From Pseudophaeomoniella oleicola (lineage: Eukaryota > Ascomycota > Eurotiomycetes > Phaeomoniellales > Phaeomoniellaceae), in assembly GCA_003868215.1 (NCBI GenBank), contig QWDQ01000052.1, positions 62,001 to 126,000 of the forward strand: a DNA stretch of 64,000 nucleotides, written 5' to 3'. Shown piece after piece: positions 46,105-46,255 of this stretch (the stretch's first letter is position 1; the number at the start of each line of letters is the position of its first letter). Under the pieces are notes generated by a model that had not been told where the DNA came from, ran no database searches, and saw only the letters and a list, made by a program, of their open reading frames with translations. The position numbers and the translations under genes are program-made.

Positions 46105-46139
46105 AGCTCCGCCCAGGATTCGAACCTGGGTTGCCGGAA

Positions 46140-46158
46140 GATCAGAAATGAAAGGGAA
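46140..46158 (-). other. Canonical tRNA intron at position 37/38
   Basis: A 19-nt insert follows the A immediately 3' of the CTG anticodon, the normal place for introns cut by the tRNA splicing endonuclease. The heptamer TTCTGAT occurs both at the loop and near the end of the insert, so the exact boundaries could slide; the 37/38 rule fixes them as given. Confidence 0.75.
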
Positions 46159-46172
46159 TCAGAATCCGGAGT

Positions 46173-46232
46173 CTGATGAAAACCGTTAGTATTGTTCATA
46201 AGAGGTTCTTCTTGGGATCTCTTTGCACGTAC
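46173..46232 (-). other. Spliceosomal-type intron inside the tRNA-Gln gene
   Basis: The 60-nt insert begins GTACGT directly after the D-loop (TTATC), contains TACTAAC with its branch adenosine 13 nt before the end, and closes with TTTTCATCAG. Length, donor, branch site and acceptor are all like the neighbouring protein-gene introns (compare the GTACGT donors of RPT4, CDC43 and the MFS gene at 8234). Precise GT-AG removal restores the TTATCAC D-arm usual for tRNA-Gln, whereas shifting the cut by a few bases does not. Confidence 0.85.
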
Positions 46233-46255
46233 GATAACCACTACACTAGCAGAGC

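Follow-up and report, generated by a model that had tools for sequence, protein, structure and literature searches.

What removes a segment resembling an mRNA intron from the D stem of a nuclear tRNA is the question raised by one locus in the window, a stretch of 64,000 nucleotides from the fungus Pseudophaeomoniella oleicola (C61:62001-126000 of an assembly of 26.1 Mb in 112 contigs). An initial annotation had described there a minus-strand tRNA-Gln(CUG) gene with intact A box, B box and T run, split in its D stem by 60 nt that begin GTACGT, contain TACTAAC and end in CAG; the gene was recovered base for base and the insert at the same place (Table 1). By textbook accounts, tRNA splicing in the nucleus and the splicing of mRNA are separate systems, each with its own enzymes and polymerase. 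We posit, with a probability of roughly 0.9, that these 60 nt form a spliceosomal intron of the U2 type within a nuclear tRNA gene transcribed by polymerase III (Pol III), and that this intron is one of at least eight of its kind in this genome. The initial annotation concerned a single gene; the set found here is larger and includes the only tRNA-Phe and tRNA-Tyr genes found.

Left unspliced, the Gln gene was not recognised as a tRNA by ARAGORN, nor by Rfam at the gathering score. With the 60 nt removed, ARAGORN called tRNA-Gln(ctg) with a 19-nt anticodon intron, and with both introns removed it again called Gln(ctg). The proposal that GT-AG removal restores the D arm stood up to a systematic trial of 3440 excisions, 11 of which restored a strict D arm and anticodon arm, exactly one of them being GT-AG. 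The restored D arm shares TAGTGTAGTGGTTATCA with an unsplit tRNA-Gly(TCC) gene (L044). Located between tRNA positions 23 and 24, the insert does not occupy the 37/38 position of canonical tRNA-endonuclease introns. The A box was placed with the help of tRNA positions 8-19, as given in a published account (PMC3978253). The cloverleaf, both promoter boxes and the terminator expected of a nuclear tRNA-Gln(CUG) gene are all present in the sequence, and the locus is thus predicted to be functional.

Table 1. Features of the tRNA-Gln(CUG) gene (positions in the window) and the split tRNA genes of the genome; insert sites follow our own tRNA numbering.
Feature	Coordinates	Strand	Insert site	Basis or detail
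tRNA-Gln(CUG) gene, interrupted twice	46255-46105	-		cloverleaf; ARAGORN Gln(ctg) once insert removed
GT-AG insert, 60 nt (spliceosomal-type intron)	46232-46173	-	23/24	GTACGT...CATCAG
Branch-site-like TACTAAC, branch A 14 nt from intron end	46191-46185	-		sequence
Anticodon-loop intron, 19 nt, ordinary tRNA intron of 37/38 class	46157-46139	-		placed by ARAGORN
Anticodon CTG	46162-46160	-		ARAGORN and sequence
A box TAGTGTAGTGG, intact	46248-46238	-		box consensus
B box GGTTCGAATCC, intact	46126-46116	-		B-box pattern search
T7 run, Pol III terminator-like	46100-46094	-		longest T run within gene is 4
TATA-like AATATATTTT, 43-52 nt upstream of gene	46307-46298	-		sequence
L009, Gln(CUG)			23/24	11 restoring excisions, exactly one GT-AG
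L092, Leu(AAG)			15/16	21 restoring excisions, exactly one GT-AG
L098, Pro(UGG)			24/25	39 restoring excisions, exactly one GT-AG
L099, Pro(UGG)			24/25, same site as L098	32 restoring excisions, exactly one GT-AG
L106, Phe(GAA)			16/17	81-nt insert; 24 restoring excisions, exactly one GT-AG
L134, Tyr(GUA)			26/27	88-nt insert; 4 restoring excisions, exactly one GT-AG
L169, Arg(ACG)	C29:232940-233420		32/33	16 restoring excisions, exactly one GT-AG
L194, Val(AAC)			17/18	17 restoring excisions, exactly one GT-AG

A tRNA family search of the genome, in which 63 of 781 candidates were scored, gave 46 matches among the candidates scored, 15 of them on contig C110, which is probably mitochondrial, and 31 nuclear. 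ARAGORN called a single Gln gene among the 31, with anticodon TTG, and an anticodon-loop intron in 21 of its 31 nuclear calls (L021-L051). Genes missed by the family search were sought with B-box patterns, both with and without a following T run; one search covered 100 of 170 places, with two more searches after it, and the pattern GGTTCRANYCC, for which no T run was required, covered 100 of 200 places. The loci fetched comprised 12 new ones, 40 regions picked by eye and 86 listed places. These were passed to a finder that paired the T arm and acceptor with an upstream 7-mer and then looked for the usual letters of positions 8-11; it required no GT, AG or branch site, and cannot detect an insert located in the T arm or the acceptor stem. 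The finder yielded eight interrupted genes plus ordinary ones, so that at least eight of at least 50 nuclear tRNA genes are split, the other 42 being ordinary by ARAGORN (43 calls minus the doubtful L088). No other intact tRNA-Gln(CUG) gene, which would have spoken against the initial annotation, was found in this incomplete survey, nor were the tRNA-Asp and tRNA-Trp genes that must exist. A tRNA-Lys(UUU) gene was likewise not seen unless the ARAGORN call of Lys(ttt) for L050, which we read by eye as Ile(UAU), is right.

Several candidates were set aside. A perfect D-arm match (L010/L019) is not a tRNA, and the pairs L107/L112 and L108/L109 look like tRNA-derived repeats rather than clean tRNAs. 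The finder matches L093, L094, L107, L128, L139, L191 and L219 were excluded by eye for their poorer stems, weak Rfam matches far below the gathering score were disregarded, and L088, which has an intact D arm and a long unexplained insert, was left out of the eight.

All eight genes behave as the Gln gene does when excisions of at least 20 nt starting in the 5' half are tested for a restored strict D arm and anticodon arm, with the 3' side of the anticodon stem fixed by hand. Each has 3 to 38 further restoring excisions, none of them GT-AG; GT-AG occurs among the restoring excisions in 7/7 isotypes, and the next most frequent end pair, GT-CA, in 4/7. For Leu and Tyr, excisions shifted by 1-2 bases give an identical product, and the product alone therefore cannot fix the ends. 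The Arg insert lies in the anticodon loop beside position 37/38, and its GT-AG excision is the sole one there that leaves a standard 7-nt loop. The claim of a GT-AG insert with a branch site in a nuclear tRNA gene is thus strengthened by recurrence in eight genes of seven isotypes. An unsplit Leu(AAG) paralogue (L043) holds the very D arm that GT-AG removal predicts for L092, and may be regarded as in effect an empty site within the same genome.

With inserts and anticodon introns removed (the ends of the Tyr and Val anticodon introns being set by eye), ARAGORN named the mature forms Gln(ctg), Leu(aag), Pro(tgg), Phe(gaa), Tyr(gta), Arg(acg) and Val(aac). When the GT-AG insert alone was taken out, Tyr and Val were misnamed because the second intron remains. 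Submitted unspliced and singly, the Phe, Tyr, Leu, Gln and Val genes gave no ARAGORN call, the Pro genes received wrong names, and Arg was named correctly, its insert being taken for an anticodon-loop intron; allowing longer introns turned Phe into Trp and Tyr into Lys. ARAGORN thus missed or misnamed 7/8 split genes. Of six of them submitted to Rfam, one attained the gathering score across the whole tRNA model (29 bits) and one further gene did so by a part only. Finders built for anticodon-loop introns can therefore miss essential fungal tRNAs.

The inserts, 51-88 nt long, carry the signals of spliceosomal introns. Donors are GTACGT, GTTCGT, GTGAGC (twice), GTAAGT (twice), GTAGGT and GTCAGT, and the 3' ends are CAG or TAG, giving an extended GT donor and a YAG end in 8/8 genes. 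In 6/7 isotypes there is a CTAAC whose branch A lies 13-21 nt ahead of the end of the intron, Tyr having the most distant branch site (21 nt); the two Pro inserts, which lack CTRAY, have CTTAC at -12. Random insertions that happen to carry GT, TACTAAC and AG would be thinkable for one gene taken alone, but eight genes each with one GT-AG among their restoring excisions, and a CTAAC result with a probability of ~1e-8 in shuffled inserts (~2e-5 for the looser CTRAY), leave chance a negligible share of the probability.

The window offers mRNA introns for comparison, in genes that we recognised by eye and take to encode enolase, a proteasome ATPase and pyruvate kinase. Nine exon junctions were tried, of which five were used, three gave no intron and one, in an aldehyde dehydrogenase gene, was dropped for having seven candidates; two of the five had two candidate introns each, and the better one was taken. 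The five introns, for which GT and AG were a condition of the reading, measure 49-55 nt, so that the Phe (81 nt) and Tyr (88 nt) inserts are longer. They begin GTTAGT, GTAAGT, GTACGT, GTAAAG and GTAAGA, one of them sharing GTACGT with the Gln insert, and 4/5 have CTRAY with a branch A 11-13 nt from the end. The tRNA inserts thus appear to be of the same make as the mRNA introns of the window. Adjoining the Gln gene is a gene for a kelch-type protein, named regulatory protein Ral2 in several sources; its identity is 55-69% in 119 of the 120 matches listed, the remaining one being a short piece, and the highest-ranked match with an organism is from Pyrenula (68%), followed by Arachnomyces, Thermoascus, Aspergillus and others. 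These matches would suggest a fungus within or close to Eurotiomycetes.

The inserts might instead be tRNA introns of a non-canonical kind, excised by the tRNA endonuclease where a bulge-helix-bulge forms, and their GT-AG ends would then be incidental. Canonical 37/38 introns also interrupt nuclear tRNA genes, the Gln gene among them, and anticodon-loop introns are widespread in this genome, as the ARAGORN calls above attest. Introns outside 37/38, D arms included, exist in other lineages (PMC4090602, PMC3978253), and a review names red algae (Cyanidioschyzon), nucleomorphs and archaea (Crenarchaeota) (PMC4090602). The inserts described here nevertheless differ from canonical tRNA introns in position, ends, branch site and inferred enzyme. 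Whereas the archaeal and red-algal introns are tied to the bulge-helix-bulge, in the eight genes that motif is incomplete and GT-AG and CTAAC are present: using a strict motif of 3-nt bulges and a 4-bp helix at the GT-AG boundaries, a complete bulge-helix-bulge was found at none of the eight, the best central helix having 1-3 pairs of 4. Cutting by the endonuclease would also leave GT-AG in 7/7 isotypes and CTAAC in 6/7 unexplained, and we consider it extremely unlikely.

Transcription by Pol III is likely for the split genes, as they have boxes, T runs and TATA-like motifs. In the six genes examined for terminators, the first 30 nt downstream include a T run of at least 5 and internal T runs do not exceed 4, four inserts containing T4 runs; in Arg and Val, a T7 starts ~22 and ~29 nt downstream and no internal T run exceeds 2. 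A TATA-like motif was seen by eye upstream of 7/8 split genes, Leu being the exception, and upstream of 33/43 ordinary tRNA calls (the doubtful L088 among them). In Leu, Phe and Val the insert breaks up the A box, an arrangement expected to be unfavourable for Pol III. This last feature would suit pseudogenes or silent copies, in which introns sit in dispensable genes and need no removal, as would the unsplit genes of the same isotype for Leu(AAG) (L043) and Val(AAC) (L028, with a different D arm). Decay would, however, erase splice signals, and these are kept; the stems and anticodon loops are preserved, as are the B boxes and T runs; and Phe and Tyr were found at one locus each, neither being among the 31 nuclear family matches. 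Silent copies are therefore a very unlikely account of the set.

The Phe and Tyr genes bear most directly on whether splicing of these inserts would be needed by the cell. The spliced Phe and Tyr sequences were each found at one locus, the split one, and neither isotype occurs among the 31 nuclear family matches as named by ARAGORN. To our knowledge, eukaryotic nuclei have no other anticodon for Phe or for Tyr. Removal of these two inserts should therefore be essential, with the reservation that the incomplete survey could have missed an unsplit Phe or Tyr gene. We regard it as likely, though somewhat less so than the spliceosomal nature of the inserts, that the spliceosome is an obligatory tRNA-maturation enzyme in this fungus: the only Phe(GAA) and Tyr(GUA) genes found, together with genes for Gln, Leu, Pro, Arg and Val, would need splicing, and in doubly split genes the spliceosome would act before the tRNA endonuclease.

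As a mechanism we propose that the boxes and the TATA-like element would direct Pol III transcription of each gene, ending at the T run, and that intron definition would let snRNPs assemble across the short intron. Removal of the inserts by the spliceosome, as their sequences suggest, would proceed by lariat excision and rebuild the D arm or, in Arg, the anticodon loop. The cloverleaf would fold only after lariat excision, and the tRNA endonuclease would then cut the separate 37/38 intron where one is present. For Phe and Tyr, the spliceosomal step should be essential.

The inserts occupy seven different sites, and were thus probably gained separately. They most likely arose when introns inserted into RNA genes, for instance through reverse splicing, a route that has been proposed for intron gain in other fungal RNA genes. 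Several separate insertions in one gene class could also reflect the recent spread of one mobile introner-like family, with tRNA genes as chance targets. This alternative concerns origin only; splicing would still be spliceosomal, and it is compatible with the reading of the inserts as spliceosomal introns. It appears unlikely, firstly because the inserts are mutually dissimilar except for the two Pro inserts and an 11-nt match between Leu and Val, and secondly because the entire Gln gene with its insert has a single match genome-wide, namely itself, the Gln insert being the only one searched across the genome.

Spliceosomal introns in a gene transcribed by Pol III have a precedent in U6 snRNA: mRNA-type introns are known in U6 genes of fission yeast and other fungi (Tani and Ohshima 1989 and Canzler 2016, as referenced in PMC5832005). 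The parallel with U6 drawn by the initial annotation extends to this genome, whose sole U6 match found (L018:1656-1501 on the minus strand; C32:203080-203235) carries a 56-nt GT-AG insert with TGCTAAT (CTAAT) directly after ACAGAGAAGATTAG. U6 introns resemble the tRNA inserts in having GT-AG and a branch site in a Pol III gene, the polymerase being inferred for the tRNA genes here. Unlike U6, the hosts here are tRNAs with internal promoters, several genes are concerned, and the D arm, A box or anticodon loop is broken. There are other parallels. The rDNA of lichen fungi contains spliceosomal introns, and an intron of this kind was taken out of Pol I rRNA by yeast (PMC8527467); these are also spliceosomal introns in non-Pol II RNA, but in Pol I-transcribed rRNA rather than Pol III-transcribed tRNA. 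Fungal U3 snoRNA genes have spliceosomal introns likewise located in a small stable RNA gene, in an abstract that describes U3 as polymerase III-transcribed (PMC5832005); the host is not a tRNA.

The initial annotation knew of no described case of such an intron in a nuclear tRNA gene, and our search of the open-access literature, outside which most subscription papers lie, likewise listed none. In the main text of the tRNA-intron review, 'spliceosom' and 'GT-AG' do not appear (PMC4090602). What was known is thus the presence of spliceosomal introns in Pol III transcripts, as in U6; what would be new is the joining of two supposedly separate splicing systems, which by sequence meet in one transcript. 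If this is true, the ability to translate Phe and Tyr codons would hinge directly on the capacity for pre-mRNA splicing. The genes also open several questions to direct testing: whether recognition of an intron by the spliceosome requires Pol II or a cap, how a tRNA gene withstands an intron within its A box, which of two splicing systems acts first on a shared RNA, and by what route spliceosomal introns come to lie in RNA genes.

Some further RNA-gene features were noted in the genome. Two tRNA-Ala(AGC) genes lie ~390 nt apart at L117 (C42:130550-131450), only one of them with an anticodon-loop intron. L088 (C21:299800-300300) is tRNA-like with good acceptor, D and T arms, and is called SeC with an 88-nt intron by ARAGORN. 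L107 (C38) and L112 (C63) are two almost identical tRNA-like elements whose halves are separated by a long stretch and whose flanks are similar; they are perhaps a SINE. One 31-nt B-box-like string is found four times (C47:7633, C48:178939, C57:105751 and C60:107062), and the tRNA-like repeats L108 and L109 are at sites of this string. A full-length 5S rRNA match, in which no insert was seen, is located at L055:637-518 on the minus strand.
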